Assembly: GCA_943787465.1 (NCBI GenBank)
Contig: CALSMN010000005.1
Location: 124,001-188,000, forward strand
From: an uncultured Bacteroidia bacterium
GTDB lineage: Bacteria > Bacteroidota > Bacteroidia > NS11-12g > UBA9320
Direction: 5' to 3'
Length of the DNA stretch: 64,000 nt
The notes beneath the pieces were generated by a model that saw nothing but the letters and a program-made list of their open reading frames with translations, was not told where the DNA came from and did not search any database. Position numbers and translations under genes: made by a program. Shown here in pieces: positions 1,852 through 63,059 of the stretch. Position 1 is the first letter of the stretch; each line of letters starts with the position of its first letter.

Positions 1852-3365
1852 AAATAAGGTAAATTATACCATTTTAAAAACTCCTCGTGATATGGAGACT
1901 GGATCTGTATAAAATAGTTGCCTGGTGGTATCGATGACTTTTTAATGCGAAGTATATGTTGAAACTCACCGCTAATTATTTTAGTTCCAAATGTATTTAC
2001 AATAGAATACTGGTAGAGGTCATCATTTATTGGAACAACCTCAGTATATTCTGGATATTCAATAATATGTAGTTTGATATTAATTGAGGTTTGAGAAATA
2101 ATTTTGGAGTAACTAGAAAAGCCATCAAAATCTACCTGTTTAATTCGATAATATGTTTGATCGTATGGTGAATTATCAATTGATGTATATTCGATATTTT
2201 TATTAGTTGTCCCACCACCATCTATCCGATTCAAGGTAAAAAAATTAATTCCATCTTTGGATTTTTCAAGTTCAAAATAGTCATTTTCAGTCTCTCTATT
2301 TGTACTCCAACTTATTCTATTTGATAGTAATTCCTGTTTACTATAAAATGACGCAAATTCCACTGGCAGCATACTAGCATATAGTATTGGTGATAAAACA
2401 TAATCAGACCACGGATTGAGATAAGTGTACATTTTAAAATAATAATTATGTCCATTAATTAGATTTGTTACCGTAACTGATGTCCCTGTACCCTTATAAA
2501 TACAAAACTCATCTAAAGGTAAATTTGTAGATGAATTAGGGTCAGAAAAAATAGAGTTAGCTGTAAAGTCACTTGAAACACAATCACCATTGGATCCGTT
2601 ACAGTTTTGTATACTTGGATCAAATGTTGGGATACTACCATCTTTAGCTATAATCATAATTTGACTAAAACATGATGGATTTACCCAATCTAATTTTACA
2701 GATGATATACTTTGAGGCCATATGTTTGGATTACTTACAGGTATTGCTGAAGTACATCCTAAAATTGCAATTCCTGGATCTTGACCTATGGCAACAGAAG
2801 GAGTCCAACCATCTGATTGATAAGTGGGTATAAACCCCTCTATATCTAATGTTCCAGTCGGACTTGTAGCTCCCCATGCATAGAGTCTTATTGAAATAAA
2901 TTGCCCTACAGACAATGTCGGAATACTCTGTAAATCAATGACATAGGTTTGAGGCGTTGAACTAGTTATATGGTGTTGATTAAATAATGAAAATGAAGTA
3001 TTAAATCCATCTAATGAATATTGAATCTCATAATGATTAGGTCCCGAAGGACTTCGATCAATGATAATTGTCATTTCTGCTAAATCAATAATTCTATTAG
3101 TGAGTGCAGTTAATGAAAACGCTATGTAATCATTGGATACAACTGCATCAGAAAGTGATGATTCATCCCAACCATAAGAATTAAAATCTTGTGCTGTTCC
3201 AGTAGTTTTTTGTATCCCACTACCTCTTACAAGTCCCGAAATGGACATATTATGGCCCTCAGCTAGTGATGGATGATTGTCATTACTCCGGTCAATTAAT
3301 CCAATAAGTGATTGAGCATGGAGTGAAATAGAAAAAAACAGAGTTAAAATCCATAGAACTTTCAT
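1848..3365 (-). CDS. Secreted protein with FN3-like segment and putative T9SS C-terminal domain
   Basis: 505-residue secreted protein. An N-terminal signal peptide (MKVLWILTLFFSISLHAQS) is followed by a long beta-rich region of no recognised family; around residues 290-420 it shows the WSTNRETENDYFELEKSKDG and YYRIKQVDFDG phrases that recur in Bacteroidota secreted proteins just before the sorting domain. The last ~75 residues (YSIVNTFGTKI ... IPPGNYFIQIQS ... FLKWYN) look like a divergent type A T9SS sorting domain. Substrate and activity are unknown. It is a single gene: a terminator precedes it and its own -7 element lies 5 bases before the ATG. Cell-surface localisation is inferred from the tail, which departs from the canonical motif. 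Confidence 0.75.
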   Translation of the reverse strand: MKVLWILTLFFSISLHAQSLIGLIDRSNDNHPSLAEGHNMSISGLVRGSGIQKTTGTAQDFNSYGWDESSLSDAVVSNDYIAFSLTALTNRIIDLAEMTIIIDRSPSGPNHYEIQYSLDGFNTSFSLFNQHHITSSTPQTYVIDLQSIPTLSVGQFISIRLYAWGATSPTGTLDIEGFIPTYQSDGWTPSVAIGQDPGIAILGCTSAIPVSNPNIWPQSISSVKLDWVNPSCFSQIMIIAKDGSIPTFDPSIQNCNGSNGDCVSSDFTANSIFSDPNSSTNLPLDEFCIYKGTGTSVTVTNLINGHNYYFKMYTYLNPWSDYVLSPILYASMLPVEFASFYSKQELLSNRISWSTNRETENDYFELEKSKDGINFFTLNRIDGGGTTNKNIEYTSIDNSPYDQTYYRIKQVDFDGFSSYSKIISQTSINIKLHIIEYPEYTEVVPINDDLYQYSIVNTFGTKIISGEFQHILRIKKSSIPPGNYFIQIQSPYHEEFLKWYNLPYF

Positions 3366-3369
3366 CTTT

Positions 3370-3377
3370 CAAAATTA
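3370..3377 (-). promoter_or_regulatory. Bacteroidota -7 element TAATTTTG
   Basis: Exact TAnnTTTG match on the minus strand ending five bases before the ATG at 3365, so the transcript would be essentially leaderless. It abuts the terminator hairpin of the upstream phosphate gene. No clear -33 element was recognised. Confidence 0.6.
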
Positions 3378-3410
3378 AAAAAACCAAATGAAATTTCATT
3401 TGGTTTTTTT
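3377..3410 (-). terminator. Rho-independent terminator after the Na/Pi cotransporter gene
   Basis: Perfect 20-base palindrome at 3384-3403 (CCAAATGAAA and its complement, no unpaired loop drawn) flanked by A7 and T7 runs, which lengthen the stem and supply the U-tract. It lies between the cotransporter stop (3440) and the promoter of the downstream gene. By symmetry it could act on either strand. Confidence 0.85.
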
Positions 3411-3439
3411 AATTAGCCTATATTAATTATAAATTATAT

Positions 3440-5581
3440 CTAAATATCTCCGGATGCTGCTTCAGAAACATTTATAATATGATCTCCGATACGCTCTATC
3501 GATGAGAAAATATTACTGTAAATTAATCCGCTTTGTGCATTATAATCACCTTTCTCCATACTTTTTAAATGCTTTTTACGAATTTCATTTCTCATTTCAT
3601 TGATGGCTATCTCCTGTTTTATCGCTATATCGAGTTTGATGTCATCATAATTACCAATTAAGTTTTTCATCATGATTTCAAATCCTTTTTCAACTTCAGA
3701 AAATAATTTATTTAAATTATCACGTTGATTTTGATCAAACCATAGTTTAGCATCAATTTTTTTATCTACAGCTTTAGAAATTTCCATGTAAATATCTCCA
3801 ATTCGCTCTAAATCACTAGTGATACTTAACATGGATCTTAGTTCGATTGATGATTTATCTGATAATTCCGAAATAGAAACTTTTCCTAAATAATGCGCAA
3901 TTTCAGATTCAAGATTATCTGTAATATCTTCGTATTTGATGATTTTTTTCATCAACTTCCCTCTCAATTTTACATCCGTTTCATTAATCAGATCTTGACT
4001 TTTAAAGTGCATTTTTTTCGTCAACTCCGCAAATTTTACTATTTCTTTTTTTGCCTCTAGAATAGAAATTTCTGGAGTTGAAGTTATACCTCCAGCAATA
4101 AATTCTAGCTTAAATATTTCATCATCTTCTCCTTTAGATTTTACTGTCATTTCAGCTAATCTAACTAACAATGGAACAAACCAGATTAATAGTAAAACAT
4201 TCGTTAGATTGAATATAGTATGGAAGGCCGAAAGACCAATAGTAGCTCCAGCTCCATTAATTGTATTTCCCATATCATCTAAGAAAGGATCCATACCTAA
4301 AATATTTGAAGTAAACCAAGTTACAACTCCCAAAAATACAGGCATAAGGAAAATCATCCACCCTACACCGACTATATTAAACATGGAGTGTATTCTTGCC
4401 GAACGTTTAGCATGCACATTTCCAACTAAAGAGGCAAGTTCAGCTGTAATCGTTGTTCCAATATTCTCACCCAAAATCATAGCAGCACCTACTTCAAAAG
4501 GAATGATACCTTTCAGAACCATCGTTAAAGTAAGTGCCATTGCTGCGCTTGAAGACTGGACAACAACAGTCACCAAAGTACCAAGTAGAACAAAAGCAAT
4601 ACGTCCAATGAATGGCGAATTACTAAATTGAGTAAAAAACTGAACAATTCCAGAATCGGCATCTAAATCTGGAACAGAGTCCTTTAAAAATCCTAATCCC
4701 ATAAATAAAATCGCAAAACCGATGATTGCATTAGCCCATCCTTTAACATTCTTTCTAGCCATAAACATCAGTGGTGCTCCAATGGCAATAAAAATCAATG
4801 AATAACTTGATAAACTTATCTTAAATCCAAATAATGAAACCAACCAACCTGTTATAGTTGTTCCTATATTGGCTCCCATCATGACGCCAGAAGACTCTAA
4901 TAATGTAAGTAAACCTGCATTTACAAAACTCACAGTCATGACAGTAGTTGCACTAGAAGATTGAACTAAAGCGGTAATTAAAAAACCACTTAAAACTCCC
5001 AAGTATCTATTTTTAGTCATAGTACTTAGTATCTTACGTAAACCGCCAGCAGCTGATTGCTGAAGTCCCTCACTCATTAGTTTCATGCCAAAAATAAACA
5101 AACCTAAAGAACCCAATAAAACAAGAAACTTATAAAGCCCCCAACTACGTTCTGTTTGAAATTTACCTTTCGATGACCAAACTAATTCTTCACTCTGAGG
5201 TATGCCATTTTTTAGTGTTGTTTTGATATCTTCTCCATTCTCTAGACAACCTATTTCCCAAACATATTTTTCACCGGATTTCATTCCGTCTATTTTGAAT
5301 GATGTGTTCTTGGCGTCAATTACTGGAGAATATTTCCAAGGTTTACCTTTATCTAATTTACGTTGGTATTTAATAATTACATTTTTAACATACGCAATAG
5401 AATCATAATCGATCATCCAAGAAAATACGGCACCTCCCTCAATGGGTGATGTGCTGAGGTTTTTGAAAATTCCATTACTAAGCTTTATGTTAGAGGTAGC
5501 CTCATTTGCAAATGAGTTTACTGACAATAACATGATCACAGCTAACAAGAATGACTTGAAGATGGTAAGTGATTTTTTCAT
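3440..5581 (-). CDS. Na+/Pi cotransporter with N-terminal periplasmic domain and C-terminal PhoU-like domain
   Basis: Inner-membrane sodium-dependent phosphate transporter of the NptA/PNaS family. From the ATG at 5581 (713 residues) the order is: signal peptide MKKSLTIFKSFLLAVIMLLS; a roughly 120-residue predicted periplasmic beta domain (WMIDYDSIAYVKN ... YVWEIGCLENGE); two Na_Pi_cotrans repeats, each with the hallmark QSSSA (LVQSSSATTV and VVQSSSAAMA); then a cytoplasmic helical PhoU-like region of ~200 residues. The first 20 codons of the longer frame were discarded because the signal peptide starts at MKKS. It follows the phosphate-porin gene by 49 bases, so the two probably form one operon for crossing both membranes. 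The extracytoplasmic N-terminal domain is unusual for this family. Confidence 0.9.
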   Translation of the reverse strand: MKKSLTIFKSFLLAVIMLLSVNSFANEATSNIKLSNGIFKNLSTSPIEGGAVFSWMIDYDSIAYVKNVIIKYQRKLDKGKPWKYSPVIDAKNTSFKIDGMKSGEKYVWEIGCLENGEDIKTTLKNGIPQSEELVWSSKGKFQTERSWGLYKFLVLLGSLGLFIFGMKLMSEGLQQSAAGGLRKILSTMTKNRYLGVLSGFLITALVQSSSATTVMTVSFVNAGLLTLLESSGVMMGANIGTTITGWLVSLFGFKISLSSYSLIFIAIGAPLMFMARKNVKGWANAIIGFAILFMGLGFLKDSVPDLDADSGIVQFFTQFSNSPFIGRIAFVLLGTLVTVVVQSSSAAMALTLTMVLKGIIPFEVGAAMILGENIGTTITAELASLVGNVHAKRSARIHSMFNIVGVGWMIFLMPVFLGVVTWFTSNILGMDPFLDDMGNTINGAGATIGLSAFHTIFNLTNVLLLIWFVPLLVRLAEMTVKSKGEDDEIFKLEFIAGGITSTPEISILEAKKEIVKFAELTKKMHFKSQDLINETDVKLRGKLMKKIIKYEDITDNLESEIAHYLGKVSISELSDKSSIELRSMLSITSDLERIGDIYMEISKAVDKKIDAKLWFDQNQRDNLNKLFSEVEKGFEIMMKNLIGNYDDIKLDIAIKQEIAINEMRNEIRKKHLKSMEKGDYNAQSGLIYSNIFSSIERIGDHIINVSEAASGDI

Positions 5582-5630
5582 AATTTTAATTTTGGTTTGT
5601 AAATATATAATAAGTAATTGTTTTATAAAT

Positions 5631-6812
5631 TTAGATTCCAATTTCTACTTGGAAACGAATACGATAATTGGGCTCAGAAGTGTTTTCTGTTTGTATATAA
5701 GACACATCCGATTGAACTTTTAATTTATGTCCAACAATGTACTTTGACAAACCTAAGGTATACTCTTTAGTATTTAAAGTATTGGCTAAGCCCTTTGCCA
5801 GATCAACAGAGGTGTATCGAGTGGATACTTCGTAGTTATTTTCAAATAAGTAACCCATTTGACCCACATATCCTGAACCTGATGTAAAACCTAAAATGTC
5901 ATCAGATAATTGTTTATTGGCATATTCACCCATAAAACTAAACCCTTTGAACTTGAATACGGCATCAACAAATAGTGTAGTGATATCATTAAACAAAGCA
6001 GAGTCATTCCCTGAAGCGTTTATAACAGAAACAAAAGAGCCTAATTGCCCCCCACTCCTATTGGTATTTTTATTTATGCAAGATGTCACCCCAATGGCTA
6101 AACGTGGTTTTGCCTCACGAACAAGATCTGCACTAAAATAGTCACCTTTATTACTAAAATTACCTAATGGATAAAATTCTAATCTACCCGTGTAGGCTAA
6201 ACCATTTTTTTCATTAGTAGCTGTAATGTTTCTTCCCTCCCCCGTTGTAATTGCAGCAGCTAGTTTTACAGGCATTTTACCAACGCTTTGGTTGAGTCTG
6301 TACTGAACCCCAAAATCACGATCAATATTAAACTTACTATTTACATTACTTCGATCTACAAATTGTAATGCCATGGATGAAATAACACGCTCTCTGTTCC
6401 CTGGTAATTTAGTTTGACCAAACCAAATCTGTTGATTTTTAGAAAATGCATATTTAACTACCGCATCCAACACAATTTTAGAGCCATCACTTACCCGATC
6501 AGCATCTTTTGTAATACCCAAATCTCGATTACTGAGAGCTAGCTCCAATTTATATTGAAACTTAGGACTATAGATGTAACCATTTGATTTTAGTCGCATA
6601 CGTCGAATCATAGCCTTCATTTCTTGATCATTTCCTGATTCGTTGGTTTCAAATGATGACAAACTTTGAATTCGAAAACTAAATTTCATATTCACTTTTT
6701 TATCTTCAGACTTAAATGACAAACCTTTTTCAACGGTTGGGTAACTTATTTGTGACTGAGCCGAAAATGAGAGTAGTATTAAAAATATAATTCCTTTTAT
6801 TTTATTATTCAT
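5631..6812 (-). CDS. Outer-membrane porin, phosphate-selective OprO/OprP type
   Basis: 393-residue outer-membrane beta-barrel. The ATG at 6812 gives a clean signal peptide (MNNKIKGIIFLILLSFSAQSQ); the 53 codons upstream in the frame are promoter region. The family features are an RRMRLKSNGYIYSPKFQYKLELALSN strand pair near residues 70-95, KYAFSKNQQIWFGQTKLPGNRE, QFVDRS, and many alternating strands, ending in an aromatic-rich final strand (YRIRFQVEIGI). Located directly upstream of a Na/Pi cotransporter gene, which strongly supports phosphate as substrate. A PhoB-box-like direct repeat lies just upstream. Substrate selectivity itself is inferred. Confidence 0.85.
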   Translation of the reverse strand: MNNKIKGIIFLILLSFSAQSQISYPTVEKGLSFKSEDKKVNMKFSFRIQSLSSFETNESGNDQEMKAMIRRMRLKSNGYIYSPKFQYKLELALSNRDLGITKDADRVSDGSKIVLDAVVKYAFSKNQQIWFGQTKLPGNRERVISSMALQFVDRSNVNSKFNIDRDFGVQYRLNQSVGKMPVKLAAAITTGEGRNITATNEKNGLAYTGRLEFYPLGNFSNKGDYFSADLVREAKPRLAIGVTSCINKNTNRSGGQLGSFVSVINASGNDSALFNDITTLFVDAVFKFKGFSFMGEYANKQLSDDILGFTSGSGYVGQMGYLFENNYEVSTRYTSVDLAKGLANTLNTKEYTLGLSKYIVGHKLKVQSDVSYIQTENTSEPNYRIRFQVEIGI

Positions 6813-6833
6813 ACTACAAATAGTATTTTCTAA

Positions 6834-6850
6834 TGTTAACTTAATGTTAC
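6834..6850 (-). promoter_or_regulatory. Candidate Pho box: two hexamers at 11-bp period
   Basis: Read on the minus strand, GTAACA (6850-6845), five bases, then TTAACA (6839-6834). Two hexamers on one face of the helix at 11-bp period are the layout of PhoB/PhoP boxes, and TTAACA-N5-TTAACA is the Bacillus PhoP form. The repeat lies a few bases upstream of a weak -7-like TACTATTTG (three-base spacer), that is, over the -33 region, as expected for an activator-dependent promoter of the phosphate porin gene. Confidence 0.5.
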
Positions 6851-6935
6851 CATAGTGTGATTTGAAATTTAAATTTCTATAAACAGACCTATAGATATGA
6901 AATATATAGTTTCTGATACTTCGTTTATGAAGTAT

Positions 6936-6943
6936 TAAATTTG
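6936..6943 (+). promoter_or_regulatory. -7 element TAAATTTG
   Basis: Exact TAnnTTTG match eight bases upstream of the acetyltransferase ATG at 6951; predicts a leader of only a few bases. Confidence 0.6.
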
Positions 6944-6950
6944 TGTTACA

Positions 6951-7391
6951 ATGATTCGAAAAGCCGTTCAATCCGATGTACCTGATTTATTAAAACTTAT
7001 CCATGAATTAGCACTATTTGAAAAAGCACCTCAAGAAGTCATCAACACGGAAGAACAAATAATCCTTGACGGATTCGGTATGAATCCGTTATTTAATGCT
7101 TTTGTCGCTGAGTATGATCACCGAGTTATTGGCTTTGCTATTGTCTACTACAGATACAGCACATGGAAAGGAAAATGTTTGTATCTGGAAGACTTAATCG
7201 TAACTAGAGAATACAGAAATAAAGGTATTGGACAACAACTTTTTGATGCTTGTATAGATTTTGGTAAAGTCAATTTGTGTCACAAAATGGTTTGGCAAGT
7301 GCTAGATTGGAATAAATCAGCCATACGATTTTACACTAAAAATAATGCCTCCATGGATGGAGAATGGATTAATGGATCAATAGACCTATGA
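6951..7391 (+). CDS. GNAT-family N-acetyltransferase, SSAT-like
   Basis: 146-residue acetyl-CoA-dependent acetyltransferase. The N-terminal IRKAVQSDVPDLLKLIHELALFEKAP is typical of the diamine/spermidine acetyltransferase-like branch, and the acetyl-CoA pyrophosphate loop is seen as REYRNKGIGQQLF near residues 86-98, preceded by the strand LYLEDLIV. The C-terminal VLDWNKSAIRFYTKNNA is the usual GNAT strand-helix. Substrate cannot be told from sequence; a small amine or amino acid is likely. Its TGA overlaps the ATG of the next gene (ATGA). Confidence 0.85.
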   Translation: MIRKAVQSDVPDLLKLIHELALFEKAPQEVINTEEQIILDGFGMNPLFNAFVAEYDHRVIGFAIVYYRYSTWKGKCLYLEDLIVTREYRNKGIGQQLFDACIDFGKVNLCHKMVWQVLDWNKSAIRFYTKNNASMDGEWINGSIDL

Positions 7392-8755
7392 ATAAAAATC
7401 AATGGCTTTGGATAGCTTTAGGTGTTGTAAATATTATTATCACTTTAAGTATTCCAAGTACGTTTGATAGTGGTGACAGTATTCTTCATTATTTACAAGC
7501 TCATCAAGGATTAAAAACACCACACTACTTTATGAATATGTGGTCAAAACCAGTATTTATGTTGATGGCTTTCCCTTTTGCTGTATGGGGATGGATTGGG
7601 ATGCAAATTTTTAATTCATTATGTGTATTGGGTAGCGCATTTGCCATCAAAAATATAATGGATAATTATCAAATGAATGGTTGGTATGGTGTTTTTTTAT
7701 GTTATTTCTCCCAATCATTTTTATTAGTTCAATCTTCTGGACTCACAGAGCCACTTTTCATGTTATTCCTCGTATGGATTGTGTGGTCAGAAATACAAGA
7801 TAAATCTATTTTAGCATTTACTTTACTATCTTTTTTACCTTTTATTCGTTCTGAAGGATATATTATCATACTTCTATTTTTTGCTTATTCACTTTTCCAA
7901 AAACGCTTAAAATACCTTCCTTTTATAGGAATTGGTACATTTTGTTTCGGAATTTTAGGACTGTTTTATTTTAATGATTTTCTATGGATGTTTCATCAAA
8001 ATCCCTATGCTGGAATAGAAACAAAATACGGGCACGGATCAGCTATGCACTATATCGAACAATTACCGTATATCATAGGCTTACCTATTTTTATCTTGTT
8101 TGTTCTTGGTATATTTCGTTTTTTCAACAACTTCAAAAGTTCTATTGACTTGAAAGAATTATTTTTAATTTATGGAGTCTCACTCGGTTACATTGCTGCA
8201 CATAGTATTTTTTGGACATATGGATTATTTCATAGTTTTGGATTAACTCGAGTATTGATTGTAATCATACCCTTTCTCATATTTATTGCTTATAGGGGTA
8301 TTGAATGGATATGCTGTGCATTTCATTTTGTAACACAAAAAGTAGTTTTGCTATTTTTAGGTCTAATTATTTTTATTTTTCCTTTCACTTCAAGTCCAAT
8401 GGCCCTATCATGGGAGAATGATATACAATTAGAACACAAACAATTATTAATGAATAAAGTAAACCTTTGGTTAATGAACCATCAACTTGACAAATATCCA
8501 ACATATACAAATGCATATACACTTCCATTTGTATCTAAAAGAATAATTGATAATGAAAATGAAATTTTGGAATTAAACCAAATAAAAAAAAATAGACCCC
8601 CTAAGTCACATGATTTGATAGTTTGGGATTCCTATTTTGCTATGACAGACGCACAAATTGATCAAGATTACATAGAAAAAAAGCTTAATGCAAAACCATT
8701 AAAGTCATTTATGAATGACAAAAAATATAAAATTGTCATTTATCAAATTCCTTAG
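7388..8755 (+). CDS. Polytopic membrane protein, GT-C-like glycosyltransferase candidate
   Basis: 455-residue inner-membrane protein with about ten hydrophobic segments. The first periplasmic loop carries FDSGDSILHYLQAHQ and then WSKPVFMLMAFPF, which resemble the acidic loop and the K-P segment of GT-C lipid-linked-sugar glycosyltransferases, and a soluble tail follows the last membrane helix. I could not assign a substrate or a named family. Translationally coupled to the acetyltransferase by ATGA, and convergent with the ArnT-like gene, whose stop overlaps it by 20 bases. Confidence 0.6.
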   Translation: MNKNQWLWIALGVVNIIITLSIPSTFDSGDSILHYLQAHQGLKTPHYFMNMWSKPVFMLMAFPFAVWGWIGMQIFNSLCVLGSAFAIKNIMDNYQMNGWYGVFLCYFSQSFLLVQSSGLTEPLFMLFLVWIVWSEIQDKSILAFTLLSFLPFIRSEGYIIILLFFAYSLFQKRLKYLPFIGIGTFCFGILGLFYFNDFLWMFHQNPYAGIETKYGHGSAMHYIEQLPYIIGLPIFILFVLGIFRFFNNFKSSIDLKELFLIYGVSLGYIAAHSIFWTYGLFHSFGLTRVLIVIIPFLIFIAYRGIEWICCAFHFVTQKVVLLFLGLIIFIFPFTSSPMALSWENDIQLEHKQLLMNKVNLWLMNHQLDKYPTYTNAYTLPFVSKRIIDNENEILELNQIKKNRPPKSHDLIVWDSYFAMTDAQIDQDYIEKKLNAKPLKSFMNDKKYKIVIYQIP

Positions 8756-10445
8756 CTCTTTCCCATACACCGTATCCATTTCCTTCGAAGACTTTAATTA
8801 AATTAGGGTAATTAGCTTCCAACTCTTCAAATTTTGAAATACGTGCTGTGATGGAAAATGGAATTTCAGTATTTAAAATCACGGCATCTCTAACTTGATT
8901 ATCAAATATCTTTTTTTCATGTTGATTAAAATCGTAAAGCGATTTAATACCCTGATCATTGAGCATTTTTTGTCGCACTTCTACTACCTGTTCTAACTTG
9001 TTTTGTTGCGTATAATAACGATGCGCATAACTTTTAAAACCGTATGTAAAATGCACCATTGGCTTATTTTGGTAGGTCTCTAATTGTCTTATCCAATCAC
9101 CTTGAACTAAGTGTTCAATGTTGGGTATTGTGGTTGTCATAAAAATAGATACACACAAAGAGTTTAATATTAAAAAAAGCATAATTCTTGGCGATTTATA
9201 TCGTAACAGTAAAAGCCAAATACTAATGATAAAAACTATTGAAACGAGTAACGGGACATAACTCCAAGAAATCGAATTACGTAACATTGAAGTAACGGAT
9301 GTATCTACTATTAATTCATTGATAAAAACAGAAGTCAATAAAGATGGATAAATTGATAATATTCCTAAAACAGAAAAAATAATAAACCAACAAAAGCCTA
9401 CTACAATCAGAATAATCTTAATAGATTTGTGTATGTGTCTATGATTGGAAAACCATATTCCCGCTATTATGGATAAAGGGATATAACACATACTACTGTA
9501 ATGTACAATTTTAGTAGTGACTAAAGAAAATACAATTAAAACAACCCAGAATAAAACTTTCATGAATCGGACATAAGTAGAGTCCATTCTTGTTCGAATT
9601 GGAGTAAAAAGAGCTTTTAAGACTAAAACAAACAAAGGAAAACAACCAAAAAGTAGAACTACTACGTGATAATAAAATGGTTGCCCATGAGATGCAATTG
9701 GATATTTGAATAATTCTATTTGATAAATTATAAATTCCTTTAAAAACCACCATCCATTCTGAGAAACTTGAATACTAAAAAATATTCCTGGAATAACAAC
9801 AAGACCAAATACCAAAATCAATATTTCTTTGAATGTATAAAAATTTATGCGGTACACCCATTGATAGCACAGACCCGTTAATCCAACCAATAAAATAGCA
9901 GCTGGACCTTTAGTAATTACTGCAAATCCAAGCATCAATCCAGAAATAAAAAATGCCCAACTCGTTTTATTTTCTATTGCCCTAACTAAAAACAAGACAC
10001 TTGAAAAAATAAACAAGTTAAATAGTGGGTCAATAATTCCAGATTTAAAATAAAAATGAGGTGTGAACGACCCTAAATAAAACAGTACTGTCAATATAGA
10101 AGCTTTCAAGCCATATCGTAGCCTAACCGTTTGGTATAATAAGAGTATGGTAAATAAACCTATAAGGACGTTGGGAAGTCTTGCAGCAAATTCGTTGATA
10201 CCAAAAAATGACATTGAAATTGCTTGAAACCATATAAATAAGGGTGGTTTTTCCCAGAAAGGCTCATAATTGATTTGAACATTAAGCCAATCTCCTGTAA
10301 CTATCATTTCACGTGATGCTTCAGCAAAGTTTATTTCATCCCAATCAAAAAGGTGAACTTGACCTAAAAAAGGGATAAATAATACAAAGTAGCCTAGAAT
10401 TACTATTGAAATGATGTAATGTTTATACAAAAGTGTTTTTATCAT
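8736..10445 (-). CDS. ArnT/PMT-type glycosyltransferase (GT39/GT83-like)
   Basis: 569-residue polytopic GT-C enzyme that moves a sugar from a polyprenyl-phosphate donor to an envelope lipid or protein. The first periplasmic loop has the catalytic signature FDWDEINFAEASREM near residues 33-47 and the EPFWEKPPLFIW motif; FAARLPNVLIGLF and a dozen membrane helices follow, with a soluble C-terminal domain. Its ATG overlaps the TGA of the PAP2 phosphatase gene, so the two are coupled, which suggests joint work on a lipid-linked intermediate or on lipid A. The donor and acceptor are not determinable here. Confidence 0.87.
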   Translation of the reverse strand: MIKTLLYKHYIISIVILGYFVLFIPFLGQVHLFDWDEINFAEASREMIVTGDWLNVQINYEPFWEKPPLFIWFQAISMSFFGINEFAARLPNVLIGLFTILLLYQTVRLRYGLKASILTVLFYLGSFTPHFYFKSGIIDPLFNLFIFSSVLFLVRAIENKTSWAFFISGLMLGFAVITKGPAAILLVGLTGLCYQWVYRINFYTFKEILILVFGLVVIPGIFFSIQVSQNGWWFLKEFIIYQIELFKYPIASHGQPFYYHVVVLLFGCFPLFVLVLKALFTPIRTRMDSTYVRFMKVLFWVVLIVFSLVTTKIVHYSSMCYIPLSIIAGIWFSNHRHIHKSIKIILIVVGFCWFIIFSVLGILSIYPSLLTSVFINELIVDTSVTSMLRNSISWSYVPLLVSIVFIISIWLLLLRYKSPRIMLFLILNSLCVSIFMTTTIPNIEHLVQGDWIRQLETYQNKPMVHFTYGFKSYAHRYYTQQNKLEQVVEVRQKMLNDQGIKSLYDFNQHEKKIFDNQVRDAVILNTEIPFSITARISKFEELEANYPNLIKVFEGNGYGVWERAKEFDK

Positions 10446-57892: not shown

Positions 57893-57922
57893 AGCCTCTT
57901 GTGAAAACAAGGGGCTTTTTTA
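57893..57922. terminator. Terminator between small basic protein and lectin-type gene
   Basis: Nine-bp stem (AGCCTCTTG with CAAGGGGCT, one T-G wobble), loop TGAAAA, followed by T7 on the plus strand. It ends the plus-strand gene (stop at 57871); the minus-strand lectin gene ends at 57920. Confidence 0.88.
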
Positions 57923-59962
57923 TTTTATAAGATGAAGTGACCCTTTAGAAAATTTGGCTTGCTTAAGTCCATTGTCTATGCCGCTCCAGTCAGAAATCCA
58001 AAAATATACTCCATCCTGACATGGTATATTTTTAAAGGTACCATCCCAAGAATCCGTTATATCATTTGTCTGATATACAAGCTCTCCCCAACGATTGTAA
58101 ATTTTTAAATTGTAAGAAAATAGTTTAGGGCAATCAACCGTAGGTTTAAAAAAATCATTCAAATTATCTTGATTAGGTGTAAAAGCATTAGGAAATACCA
58201 AATCACATAAACAATCTATTAATTTGACATCAAAATTGGCACTATCTTCACCACATGAATTTTCAGCTTTAACCACAACGATTCCATCATAATTTTTCAA
58301 TGAGTATGAGTATCCATTGACCGAATTGTTCCAGGTAATATCAGCTAAAATTTCATCCACAGTTACAATGATTTCTTCATTTCTACAAATCAGAACATCA
58401 TCCAATTGACTCAACTTAGGGGAATTTAAAGTAAAAACGTCAATCGTATCTGATTCAAAACATAAATCATTCTTTCCTATTGATAACGTATACCTACCCG
58501 CTTTATCAATTTTAATTGATGAAGCTGTACTTCCTGTATTCCATCTAAAATCAAACTGATCTGTAAGTTTTGGAAATAATGTAAACGTATCTCCCAAACA
58601 AAGTAATGTATCCTCACCAAGATAGAGGTTTTCAATAATCAATTCACGTATTTGATAGTAATCAACTACTGTATTGCATTCATTTTCAGCTTGAACTTCT
58701 ACTAATTGAGTTGATTTATAAAATCGGGATTCTGATGATAAACCATCACCCCATTGATAAGTAGCATCATCTGGTTGAACATCAATACTAATTAAAGTTG
58801 AATCTCCCTCACAAAACACCGTATCCCCTTCCATTAAAATAGAAGGTGAGGTATTGGTGGTAATATTAAATGTGTCTTCATCATAACAAATCCCTTTCCA
58901 TACCCTGAGACTGTATTCCCCTGCGGATGTCCAAGTCACTTTTTTATTTTTTGAGCCACTTTCCCATAGTAATGAATCATACATAGATGTGAAATCAAAT
59001 GCGTATCCAAGACCATCACACAAAAGAGAATCTGTGATAGAATCCATCGTGAAAGATTCCGCAATTTCTACATATACCGTATCTTGAAAAATGTTATCAC
59101 ACAAGTCGGTATACGTTACATAGTAGGTCATAGGGACTTCTGAGGAACATGTAGGTTTTCGGATGGTATGATCATTCAAAAAGCTATTAGGAGTCCAGGT
59201 ATATTTATTATTTTTACTCTCTCTGGCATTCAATAAAATAGTTTCACCCTTACACAATGTAAATGTATCTTGAACCAAAATATCTTCTCTCAAACAAACC
59301 GTTTGTTTGTTATTTAATCCTCCCGTAGAGGATGTAAACCCCCAATAGACTATATTTTTACCTTTGAATATACTGTTTTGGATGTCATAGGTAATCTGTT
59401 GACGAAGATTGCAATCAAACCATACTTCGATTTGCTTTTTATTGGCATCCCAGACTATACGAACTAAATGGTCTTTTCCATCTTCTATGTTGCCCCCACT
59501 TGGAAGAGCTGACACAGGGGCACTAATACTGTTTGCACTTGTATGAGTAACACTTCCATTTTTAAAAATACCAATGTGATCGCTAGCTAAATCACCCATA
59601 TTGTTATTTTCAAAATCATCAAATTCGATCCCAAAACTAGGAGAAAATCCTTCAAATCCCAAGCCCCCTCCGGAGTTGCCAAGAGCCTTATTACCAACAT
59701 CTTGCAAAACAAAAACGATACCATCTGCACCTGATTGATCCTTGTTTCCAAAATTTAAGTAAAATTCTAAATCAAAATCCTTAGATAAATCAATAGGATC
59801 TGCATACCAAACTGAACCAAGCTGCCAATTGACAGCACTGGTTAATTGATAACAATCTCCTCCAATAGATCTCGCATTTCCATTGGCAAAATAGGATTGG
59901 CTAACTCCCTCTTTATTCAAAAAAATAAAGAAAACAATTAGTAAAAGTATAGATTTTTTCAA
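57920..59962 (-). CDS. L-type lectin-domain surface protein with gliding-type (T9SS type B) C-terminus
   Basis: ~680-residue secreted protein: signal peptide (KKSILLLIVFFIFLNKEGVSQS); an L-type lectin domain at ~25-225 (GDCYQLTSAVNWQLGSVWY, ADGIVFVLQDVG, GIEFDDFENN, DHLVRIVWDANKKQIEVWFD); several Ig-like/PKD-like repeats with recurring DTF...C patterns; and a CHU_C/gliding-motility C-terminal domain (VFPNAFTPNQDNLNDFFKP, LKIYNRWGELVYQTND, WDGTFKNIPCQDGVYFW). It is probably a T9SS-exported carbohydrate-binding adhesin. The start TTG at 59962 gives MKKSILLL; a TTG six codons earlier coincides with the -7 element. Confidence 0.87.
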   Translation of the reverse strand: MKKSILLLIVFFIFLNKEGVSQSYFANGNARSIGGDCYQLTSAVNWQLGSVWYADPIDLSKDFDLEFYLNFGNKDQSGADGIVFVLQDVGNKALGNSGGGLGFEGFSPSFGIEFDDFENNNMGDLASDHIGIFKNGSVTHTSANSISAPVSALPSGGNIEDGKDHLVRIVWDANKKQIEVWFDCNLRQQITYDIQNSIFKGKNIVYWGFTSSTGGLNNKQTVCLREDILVQDTFTLCKGETILLNARESKNNKYTWTPNSFLNDHTIRKPTCSSEVPMTYYVTYTDLCDNIFQDTVYVEIAESFTMDSITDSLLCDGLGYAFDFTSMYDSLLWESGSKNKKVTWTSAGEYSLRVWKGICYDEDTFNITTNTSPSILMEGDTVFCEGDSTLISIDVQPDDATYQWGDGLSSESRFYKSTQLVEVQAENECNTVVDYYQIRELIIENLYLGEDTLLCLGDTFTLFPKLTDQFDFRWNTGSTASSIKIDKAGRYTLSIGKNDLCFESDTIDVFTLNSPKLSQLDDVLICRNEEIIVTVDEILADITWNNSVNGYSYSLKNYDGIVVVKAENSCGEDSANFDVKLIDCLCDLVFPNAFTPNQDNLNDFFKPTVDCPKLFSYNLKIYNRWGELVYQTNDITDSWDGTFKNIPCQDGVYFWISDWSGIDNGLKQAKFSKGSLHLIK

Positions 59963-59977
59963 CTGAATATGTTGTAA

Positions 59978-59985
59978 CAAATATA
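59978..59985 (-). promoter_or_regulatory. -7 element TATATTTG (lectin gene)
   Basis: Exact TAnnTTTG on the minus strand, 15 bases before the TTG at 59962. Confidence 0.55.
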
Positions 59986-60025: not shown

Positions 60026-61405
60026 CTAAGCTGTAAGCTCTTTGATATCCGATTTAATTTTATTGACTAAACTGTTAGCTACACTCAGGGTACTTCCTTC
60101 GGCATAAATGCGTATAATGGGTTCTGTGTTGGATTTTCGTAGATGCACCCACTCTGTATCAAATTCTATTTTCACGCCATCCACCGTATTTATAGGTTGA
60201 TTTTTATATTTATCTTGAATACGATCAAGGATAAAATCTACATCTATATCAGGAGTCAGTTCCATTTTATTTTTACTAATAATATAATTTGGATAAGAGG
60301 CTTTAAGGTGACTTATGGGTTGATTTACTTTAGCAAGATGAGTGAGAAATAATGCAATACCCACTAACGCATCTCTTCCATAATGAAGTTCAGGTAAAAT
60401 AATACCCCCATTTCCTTCACCTCCAATAATGGCATTGGTATCTTTCATCATTTTCACTACGTTGACCTCTCCTACAGCGCTAGCTTGGTAGGTTCCACCA
60501 TGTTTTTCCGTAACATCTCTTAAAGCACGTGTGCTGGATAAATTAGAGACGGTATTCCCTTTTTTATGACTGAGAACGTAATCTGCTACAGCAACTAATG
60601 TGTATTCTTCTCCAAATACATCTCCATTTTCATTGACAAATGCTAAACGGTCTACATCCGGATCTACCACAATACCTAGATCCGCTTGATGACGAATAAC
60701 GGCTGAAGATAAATCTGTCAAATGTTCGGGCAATGGCTCCGGATTATGGGGAAATTTCCCAGTAGGCTCACAAAAGAGCTCAATAACTTGGTTGACCCCC
60801 AGTTTTTTTAACAGAAGGGGTACAGCAATACCTCCAGTTGAATTGACGGCATCTACCACAATGGTAAAATTACGTTGGCGTATGGCTGCAGTGTCAATTA
60901 AATCTAGGTTTAAAATCGCATCAATATGCCAATTTATATACGCTTCTCGAGTTGTATAACTGCCTATCTGATCAATAGAAGCATATGAAAAATCGTTGGA
61001 TCCGACTTGACGAATAATTTCATTACCTAAAGCCTCCGAAATAAATTCTCCTTTTGCATTGAGTAATTTTAAAGCATTCCATTGTTTGGGATTATGACTT
61101 GCCGTAATAATAATCCCTCCAGCGGCCTCTTCGTTTACAACAGCCATTTCCACTGTAGGTGTGGTACTTAAGCCTAAATCAATGACGTCTATACCCTTAC
61201 TCATAAGCGTACCACAAATCAATTGATTGATCATAAACCCTGACAATCGAGCATCGCGACCAATGACAATTTTACGGTTTTCAGCCGTTAAAATTTTATC
61301 TGCAAAAGCCGTCGTGTATTTAACAATATCTAAGGGAGTTAACGATTCGTCCTCTACCCCACCAATTGTTCCTCGAATACCCGATATTGATTTAATTAAT
61401 GTCAT
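60026..61405 (-). CDS. glmM: Phosphoglucosamine mutase (alpha-D-phosphohexomutase)
   Basis: 459-residue phosphosugar mutase. The phosphoserine loop is GIIITASHNPKQWNALKLL near residue 100; the metal loop is VDPDVDRLAF; the sugar loop is GEGNGGIILPELHYGRDALVG; the phosphate-binding C-terminal loop is RKSNTEPIIRIYAEG. The N-terminal ISGIRGTIGG is GlmM-like. Glucosamine 6-phosphate to 1-phosphate for peptidoglycan and LPS is the likely reaction; phosphomannomutase activity is the alternative. A -7-like TTTATTTG is just upstream. Confidence 0.9.
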   Translation of the reverse strand: MTLIKSISGIRGTIGGVEDESLTPLDIVKYTTAFADKILTAENRKIVIGRDARLSGFMINQLICGTLMSKGIDVIDLGLSTTPTVEMAVVNEEAAGGIIITASHNPKQWNALKLLNAKGEFISEALGNEIIRQVGSNDFSYASIDQIGSYTTREAYINWHIDAILNLDLIDTAAIRQRNFTIVVDAVNSTGGIAVPLLLKKLGVNQVIELFCEPTGKFPHNPEPLPEHLTDLSSAVIRHQADLGIVVDPDVDRLAFVNENGDVFGEEYTLVAVADYVLSHKKGNTVSNLSSTRALRDVTEKHGGTYQASAVGEVNVVKMMKDTNAIIGGEGNGGIILPELHYGRDALVGIALFLTHLAKVNQPISHLKASYPNYIISKNKMELTPDIDVDFILDRIQDKYKNQPINTVDGVKIEFDTEWVHLRKSNTEPIIRIYAEGSTLSVANSLVNKIKSDIKELTA

Positions 61406-61528
61406 ACGTTCAATTGCAAATAAACAACCAATATGCGTCTATTTTTCCATCATATTAATAACAACTTTTTGGCATGATGTGGATTATGTAACTAAAATTT
61501 AGGGAATCGCATAAAAATCATATCCATT

Positions 61529-61544
61529 TATGATATATATCATA
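61529..61544. repeat. 16-bp perfect palindrome, candidate operator
   Basis: TATGATATATATCATA is fully self-complementary. It lies 21 bases upstream of a weak -7-like AACATTTG (61566-61573), about where a regulator would cover the -33 region of the small-peptide locus. The 447-base gap between glmM and the next long gene otherwise contains only the features listed (palindrome, leader, peptide, terminator). Confidence 0.45.
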
Positions 61545-61660
61545 TTTTTACTATTTTTTATTTAAAACATTTGACCCTTGGAGTTAGTTGAAAATCCTGT
61601 CGCTCGCATATCACGAGGGCACTAAAGCGAGTAGGCACAACACTTTATCATATACTTTAC

Positions 61661-61729
61661 ATGAAAAAATTAAGTGTAAAAAAACAACGAACCGTTGTTG
61701 CTGGAGGAGATCATACCTATGGCTGGTAA
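61661..61729 (+). CDS. 22-residue putative RiPP/bacteriocin-like precursor peptide with Gly-Gly
   Basis: Short frame with a basic leader starting MKKLSVKKQR, a hydrophobic TVVA, then GG and a six-residue tail DHTYGW before TAA. A Lys-rich N-terminus followed by GG is the usual layout of leaders cut by C39 peptidases, and MKK-L-x-x-KK starts are common in Bacteroidota RiPP precursors. The adjacent downstream gene carries the N-terminus of exactly such a C39 exporter. There is no Cys, so it is not a standard lanthipeptide; Asp, His, Thr, Tyr and Trp are modifiable. The gene is too short to be sure by statistics alone. Confidence 0.55.
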   Translation: MKKLSVKKQRTVVAGGDHTYGW

Positions 61730-61788
61730 TTTTTCTTATACATAAGAAAAAATTGCTACCTATAATGGGTTGCTCTATTCCATAATTT

Positions 61789-61833
61789 AAAAATCACCAA
61801 TCATGAACAAAATATTGCTTTGGTGATTTTTTT
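61789..61833 (+). terminator. Terminator (possible attenuator) between the small peptide and the C39-HlyD fusion gene
   Basis: Perfect 12-bp stem (AAAAATCACCAA/TTGGTGATTTTT) with a 19-base loop and a T7 run. It is preceded by a weaker A/T hairpin right after the peptide stop (TTTTTCTTAT/ATAAGAAAAA, 61730-61751). It ends 18 bases before the next ATG, so the downstream gene is read only by readthrough or from a promoter I cannot see. Confidence 0.8.
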
Positions 61834-61851
61834 ATACCTACTAAAACATAC

Positions 61852-62595
61852 ATGTCTAAAATTATTCACTTTTTTAAAAAAAAGAACATCAAACCTTTTC
61901 CTTTTATCCGTCAAACCGGTATGATGGAGTGTGGCACAACCAGTTTGGCCTACAATCGATACTATCAGTCCGTGGAAGATTATAAAATTCAAGTCATATC
62001 AATAAACAAAATGATCAATAGTCTGAAGACTGAAATTAGTAAGTTTACAACTGAAAATTATAAACTAACAACCAATTATGAAGCAATAACCTTTGATTTA
62101 ACCTCGGAGATTGATAATCTTAAATCAAAAATCAGGAACATCTACGGTGACTTCCAAATATCAGATGATGGGCTGTATCTAATTTCAGATAGAAAAGGAC
62201 AGATTACTTACATAAAAACATCAGATTGGCAAATTGACGCTCAAGCAGTGATTGTAAAAATTTTACCTCAAAATAGAATTCAAGAAATCGTATGTCTTAT
62301 CCCACCGCATAAAATTGGACAGATTCAATCAAAAGCAAAGGCATCCATTCAAATAGCCAGTTTTCCAACATATACATGGGGTACCCTTCAAGGATACGTA
62401 AAAAATTATAGCCAGACACCAGACGAAAACGGAAATTATCTTGCAACAATTATCATCAAAGACTATGGAAAACTAGCTCCGATGATACGACCCAGTATGC
62501 AAGGCACAGCATACATCATCTATGAAAATAAAACATTACTTGGTTATCTCGTAAGCACAGTGAAACAAAAATATGATTCTTCTATAAACACATAA
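61852..62595 (+). CDS. Fusion of C39 bacteriocin-exporter N-terminus to HlyD-type C-terminus (probable deletion scar)
   Basis: 247-residue product. Residues 1-34 (HFFKKKNIKPFPFIRQTGMMECGTTSLAY ends it; catalytic Cys27 in MECG) match the start of a peptidase C39 domain of bacteriocin ABC exporters, but the catalytic His and Asp, membrane helices and ATPase are absent. From about residue 40 the protein is a coiled coil (~45-95: INKMINSLKTEISKF) and then the lipoyl/beta-barrel part of an HlyD membrane fusion protein (GQITYIKTSDWQIDAQAVI, IPPHKIGQIQSKAKASIQI, SMQGTAYIIYENKTLLGYL). The HlyD membrane anchor is missing. An in-frame deletion joining two neighbouring genes is the simplest reading; it is unlikely to export anything by itself. 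Confidence 0.75.
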   Translation: MSKIIHFFKKKNIKPFPFIRQTGMMECGTTSLAYNRYYQSVEDYKIQVISINKMINSLKTEISKFTTENYKLTTNYEAITFDLTSEIDNLKSKIRNIYGDFQISDDGLYLISDRKGQITYIKTSDWQIDAQAVIVKILPQNRIQEIVCLIPPHKIGQIQSKAKASIQIASFPTYTWGTLQGYVKNYSQTPDENGNYLATIIIKDYGKLAPMIRPSMQGTAYIIYENKTLLGYLVSTVKQKYDSSINT

Positions 62596-62655
62596 ATCTA
62601 ATCTTGTTCATATCACGTGAATAAACCTAGTGTTCTATAAGCGTTTAAAAAACTA

Positions 62656-62663
62656 TACATTTG
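62656..62663 (+). promoter_or_regulatory. -7 element TACATTTG (rnpB)
   Basis: Exact TAnnTTTG three bases before the predicted 5' end of RNase P RNA. Confidence 0.7.
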
Positions 62664-62666
62664 TGA

Positions 62667-63033
62667 AGGCAAAACGGCTTATCGCGGGTGGATGTATGTT
62701 CATTTGAGGAAAGTCCGGGCAACATAGAGTAATGTACCTTTGGAAACAAAGGGTGTATGCGTTGAAAAACGAATACAACAGCAAGTGTAACAGAAAATAA
62801 CCGTTTGCTTTGGCGAATAAGGGTGAAAAAGTGAGGTAAGAGCTCACACGCTTGAATAGTAATATTCATTCGGTACAAACCTTACATGTTGTAAAACCAA
62901 GTAAACTACAGATTTAGAGCTACTCGTTCTAATGCTTGTTTATTCAAGATGCTGTAGAGGGTAGGTTGCATAGATAAATGATAAGCTCATTCGCCTTGGC
63001 GAAGAGACAGAACCCGGCTTATAGTTTTGCCTT
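62667..63033 (+). ncRNA. rnpB: RNase P RNA (bacterial type A)
   Basis: Catalytic RNA that matures tRNA 5' ends. The conserved core GAGGAAAGTCCGGGC is at 62706-62720 (P4 5' half and CR-I), and the matching 3' core ACAGAACCCGGCTTAT is at 63007-63022. The 5' end AGGCAAAAC (62667-62675) pairs with GTTTTGCCT (63024-63032) as P1, directly followed by a T-run that should end transcription. GGTAAGAGCTCAC at ~62837 is a further typical segment. Ends are set by P1 pairing and may be off by a few bases. The minus-strand ORFs here are shadows. Confidence 0.94.
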
Positions 63034-63059
63034 TTTTAAAAAAAAATGAATTAGAAAAT

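Follow-up and report, generated by a model that had tools for sequence, protein, structure and literature searches.

In adaptors of the HlyD family, the general layout comprises a membrane anchor, two lipoyl halves and a coiled-coil hairpin, and the domain boundaries used here follow this family knowledge. When a deletion between adjacent genes gives a chimeric pseudogene, the upstream gene contributes its start and the downstream gene its end. In the RiPP clusters of Bacteroidales, precursors with a double-glycine (GG) motif are commonly paired with a C39 exporter (PMC10352776), and a transport set that comprises a C39 exporter, a second ABC transporter and HlyD has been described for such peptides elsewhere (PMC3140520). 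The two halves of the open reading frame (ORF) described here derive from two subunits of such a cassette, the C39-peptidase ABC exporter and HlyD, which are known from colicin V export and from Bacteroidales RiPP clusters (PMC10352776). In contrast to this double-glycine peptide cassette, the fusion has no transporter, no ATPase, no anchor and no complete peptidase. It shares the C-terminal positions of the HlyD type I secretion adaptors (TIGR01843), while their N-terminal half is missing. Its start-to-end join is that of the deletion-derived chimeric pseudogenes, but the frame is kept and the ORF is still gene-like.

The window is the whole stretch of DNA analysed, 64,000 nucleotides from an uncultured Bacteroidia bacterium (G000, contig C5, positions 124001-188000), the genome of which is 1.97 Mb in 10 contigs, 99.5% complete and of Bacteroidota type in its gene content and relatives. 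The fusion ORF (61852-62595, forward strand) encodes 247 amino acids, is open throughout and lies well within a 311 kb contig. The left flank of this site is a glmM-like phosphoglucosamine mutase gene on the reverse strand (60026-61405), with orthologues at 76-82% identity in 16 of the 18 congeners, and the right flank is the RNase P RNA gene rnpB on the forward strand (62666-63037; Rfam RF00010, 198.8 bits). Beyond glmM, the window encodes a lectin-like protein whose C-terminal region is of the gliding type (57920-59980), and a similar lectin-like gene is found between glmM and a phosphatase-like gene in G016 and G006 (L040 4250-5695; L043 474-1898).

The initial annotation read the ORF as a C39-exporter start joined in frame to an HlyD end, and alignment of both halves to intact relatives confirmed this. 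The first 33 residues (61852-61950) align with the starts of five exporters of the same subfamily and keep the MECGTT motif; Cys27 (61930-61932), which had been proposed as the catalytic cysteine, corresponds in each of these five to the catalytic-type Cys of ECGTT. Residues 15-33 are identical at 17 of 19 positions to the N-terminus of the C39 exporter of locus L124 (E 3e-11), and the fusion ORF matches the C39 exporter of locus L123 with an E of 1e-8. In the Pfam scan the fusion ORF had no match, and neither had the C39 piece alone, which is too short; since Pfam does not recognise it, the C39 assignment rests on the subfamily alignment. Residues 34-247 (61951-62595) align with residues 212-425 of the L123 HlyD (E 2e-39, 33% identity), which corresponds to the C-terminal half of the adaptor past the coiled-coil hairpin turn. 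Positions 298-416 of NCBIfam TIGR01843 match residues 133-242 (E 6e-11), with a score of 41.9 against a cut-off of 208.65. The two-part structure proposed earlier therefore stands, while its C39-like part ends at residue 33 in the alignment, not at residue 34. In BLAST, the HlyD alignment reaches as far back as residue 19, which could suggest that the N-terminus, too, comes from HlyD; this reading was rejected, because the matches there are only scattered and the identity of residues 15-33 to a C39 exporter is far stronger. Judged from these alignments, a single exporter subfamily accounts for both halves.

Intact and increasingly close relatives were found stepwise, L087 and L088 at the beginning, and then the loci L123 (genome G703) and L124 (genome G749) by profile search of Bacteroidota genomes. 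In L123, a complete cassette lies on one strand, with a 47-codon peptide carrying KKIKGG (4268-4411) followed by a 729-aa C39-ABC exporter (4890-7079) and a 425-aa HlyD (7117-8394). In L124, the genes of the C39-ABC exporter and HlyD overlap by 14 bases. Upstream of this exporter, an ORF (2868-3440) appears by eye to consist of a GG leader and then a Hint-like region, a type of cargo that is unusual for C39 exporters. The L088 locus has the C39 exporter and HlyD on one strand with one other gene in between, and this ORF (7837-9018), judged by eye, looks transposon-associated and has zinc-ribbon cysteines. In G319, G354 and G431, the two genes are on separate contigs. A three-row profile search gave matches only in two genomes known beforehand, and single-protein scans of genome contigs, viral contigs and plasmids gave no relative. 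The HlyDs of L047, L048 and L051, the first matches within the order and genus, were rejected as close relatives; they belong to a different branch, with TolC-like genes and ABC proteins that lack C39 as neighbours.

The initial annotation had suggested an in-frame deletion of the rest of the exporter gene and the start of hlyD. This is supported as the best explanation, a deletion between neighbouring genes on the same strand, because L123 and L124 have intact cassettes in which the genes follow this order. In the coordinates of L123, the piece missing from the window would be 4962-7749, or 2788 bp. Aligning each half to intact exporter and HlyD genes, the check that had been proposed, placed the breakpoint after the Ala33 codon (61950/61951, forward strand), where the C39 alignment stops and the HlyD alignment starts, within an uncertainty span of 61948-61983. 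The position near 61950 is at the edge of the range of 61950-61975 predicted earlier.

The interval between glmM and rnpB is variable in the genus (window 61405-62666; L037, L040, L043, L044 and L046), being near-empty in four congeners, occupied by a phosphatase-like gene in five and by the export relic in the window. In G008, G007, G003 and G014, the gap is about 190-202 bp, against 1261 bp in the window, and these empty sites align at the DNA level with the window on each side of the extra DNA, which places the acquired remnant at approximately 61490-62600. The five other congeners have an endonuclease/exonuclease/phosphatase-like ORF instead. Since the interval is only about 200 bp in four congeners, the simplest history is that this lineage probably acquired the export cassette at this position and that the cassette lost its middle afterwards.

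Between glmM and the fusion, a 22-codon ORF on the forward strand (61661-61729), MKKLSVKKQRTVVAGGDHTYGW, is a candidate double-glycine leader peptide by its translation and codon score. The codon score is good for its length and exceeds that of 350 of the 436 windows of 22 codons taken from resident genes. The putative cleavage site is MKKLSVKKQRTVVAGG/DHTYGW, and the end of the peptide is 122 bp upstream of the exporter remnant, so that a GG motif would lie near a C39 exporter gene. No curated precursor family in Pfam or NCBIfam matched the 22 residues, a query so short that it would rarely score, and no relatives were found in 108 genomes of the order or 395 genomes of the phylum. A weak match in G052, which reads EKRTVVDGEKHTHGW, was rejected since it is antisense to a GTPase-like gene. 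With no relative detected and an unusually short leader, the peptide may itself be a remnant. RNA folding of 61725-61845 (z -4.35) gave an A+U-rich hairpin directly after the peptide stop (61730-61751, forward strand), and a second, terminator-like hairpin with a T run after it was predicted between the peptide and fusion ORFs (61789-61833, forward strand).

Compared with a peptidase-containing ABC transporter (PCAT), the fusion has the C39 motif with the catalytic Cys at its N-terminus. The catalytic His and Asp are absent, as the sequence past residue 33 aligns with HlyD and not with C39, and so are the transmembrane and ATPase domains, with no hydrophobic segment and no ABC family match in Pfam or NCBIfam. 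Compared with HlyD, the C-terminal region of the family is present (TIGR01843; L123 HlyD), and residues 1-211 of the L123 HlyD have no counterpart. The earlier statement that the HlyD-like part has no membrane anchor was borne out, with a maximal 19-residue Kyte-Doolittle mean of 1.21. The alignment covers only the part past the hairpin turn, so the piece is predicted to have lost the first helix of the coil and the first half of the lipoyl domain together with the anchor, and would form neither a complete coiled-coil hairpin nor both lipoyl halves. With the catalytic His and Asp lost at the join, along with transporter, ATPase, HlyD anchor and one half of the lipoyl domain, the fusion almost certainly cannot support peptide export.

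The actual frame is the sole frame with a positive codon score across the whole ORF, and this score is below those of all 60 resident-gene windows of the same length. Such a low score fits a foreign origin as well as decay and does not discriminate between them. In neutral simulation, the median time to breakage of the ORF is 14 substitutions when indels are left out, or 6 events with 10% indels. As the ORF is still open against this median of 6-14 events, the deletion would seem recent if the fusion is neutral, a suggestion drawn from one genome per species. Retention of the frame has a one in three chance, or alternatively might reflect selection.

The latter would fit a selected new protein, such as a cytoplasmic HlyD-derived peptide binder or a regulator in which the C39 start serves as a leader-docking piece. 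The 247 open codons and a codon bias that favours this frame alone agree with such a protein, but the C39 piece has neither the catalytic His and Asp nor the greater part of its fold, and the HlyD piece is without its anchor and first lipoyl half. Moreover, the full-length fusion, the presence of which in other genomes had been named as a check, was absent from every other genome searched, including the 18 congeners. In a profile search of 395 genomes of the class and 395 of the phylum, nearly all relatives of the HlyD half had an uninterrupted frame as long as a complete HlyD, and no fusion-sized ORF was found among the close ones. A selected protein of this kind is thus very unlikely, and that the chimera is expressed and selected specifically as a soluble HlyD-derived binder of the stranded peptide, a new C39-start/HlyD-end architecture, is slightly less likely still.

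The join rests on one assembly, so an intact exporter locus could have lost its central part during assembly or two copies could have been collapsed, the latter having been raised by the initial annotation. Against such an artefact, the locus is well within its contig in a nearly complete assembly, and no second C39 domain or related HlyD copy was found elsewhere in it. No C39 peptidase was detected in the host genome or its 18 congeners, and among the matches listed for a C39-ABC query against the genus, every ABC exporter starts past the peptidase domain of the query. The proposed search for a complete paralogous exporter elsewhere in the genome likewise found none, and therefore the assembly had nothing to collapse with; we consider an artefact very improbable. 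A mixed population, with intact and deleted forms among the sampled cells and the deleted form assembled, would suit a recent deletion, but no exporter fragment occurs elsewhere in the assembly, and there is hardly any chance that this is the explanation.

We therefore regard it as highly probable that the fusion is the deletion relic of an acquired peptide-export cassette, in agreement with the earlier proposal that the export locus was lost and the peptide left behind as a relic. What was observed directly is the homology of each half, the intact gene order in other genomes, the site that is empty in the congeners and the lack of another C39 domain in the host; the deletion as an event, its size, its recency and the lack of function are deduced. 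A small export cassette of a short double-glycine peptide, a C39-peptidase ABC exporter and an HlyD adaptor would have been acquired between glmM and rnpB. Later, a deletion of about 2.8 kb would have taken all exporter codons after the 33rd together with the 5' half of hlyD, and what remained of the two genes would have been fused in frame. The product would be a soluble 247-residue chimera incapable of leader cleavage, ATP hydrolysis or membrane anchoring and without a complete lipoyl domain, so that peptide export would be lost and the peptide gene stranded.

The fusion, almost certainly non-working, would thus represent ordinary gene loss at an early stage and not a new kind of protein. 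In a single genus, the same site would have both gained and lost a cassette for peptide export, with the deletion mapped by an intact relative and the gain bracketed by the empty sites. It also illustrates that a chimera formed by in-frame deletion can pass as a new protein architecture in annotation pipelines.
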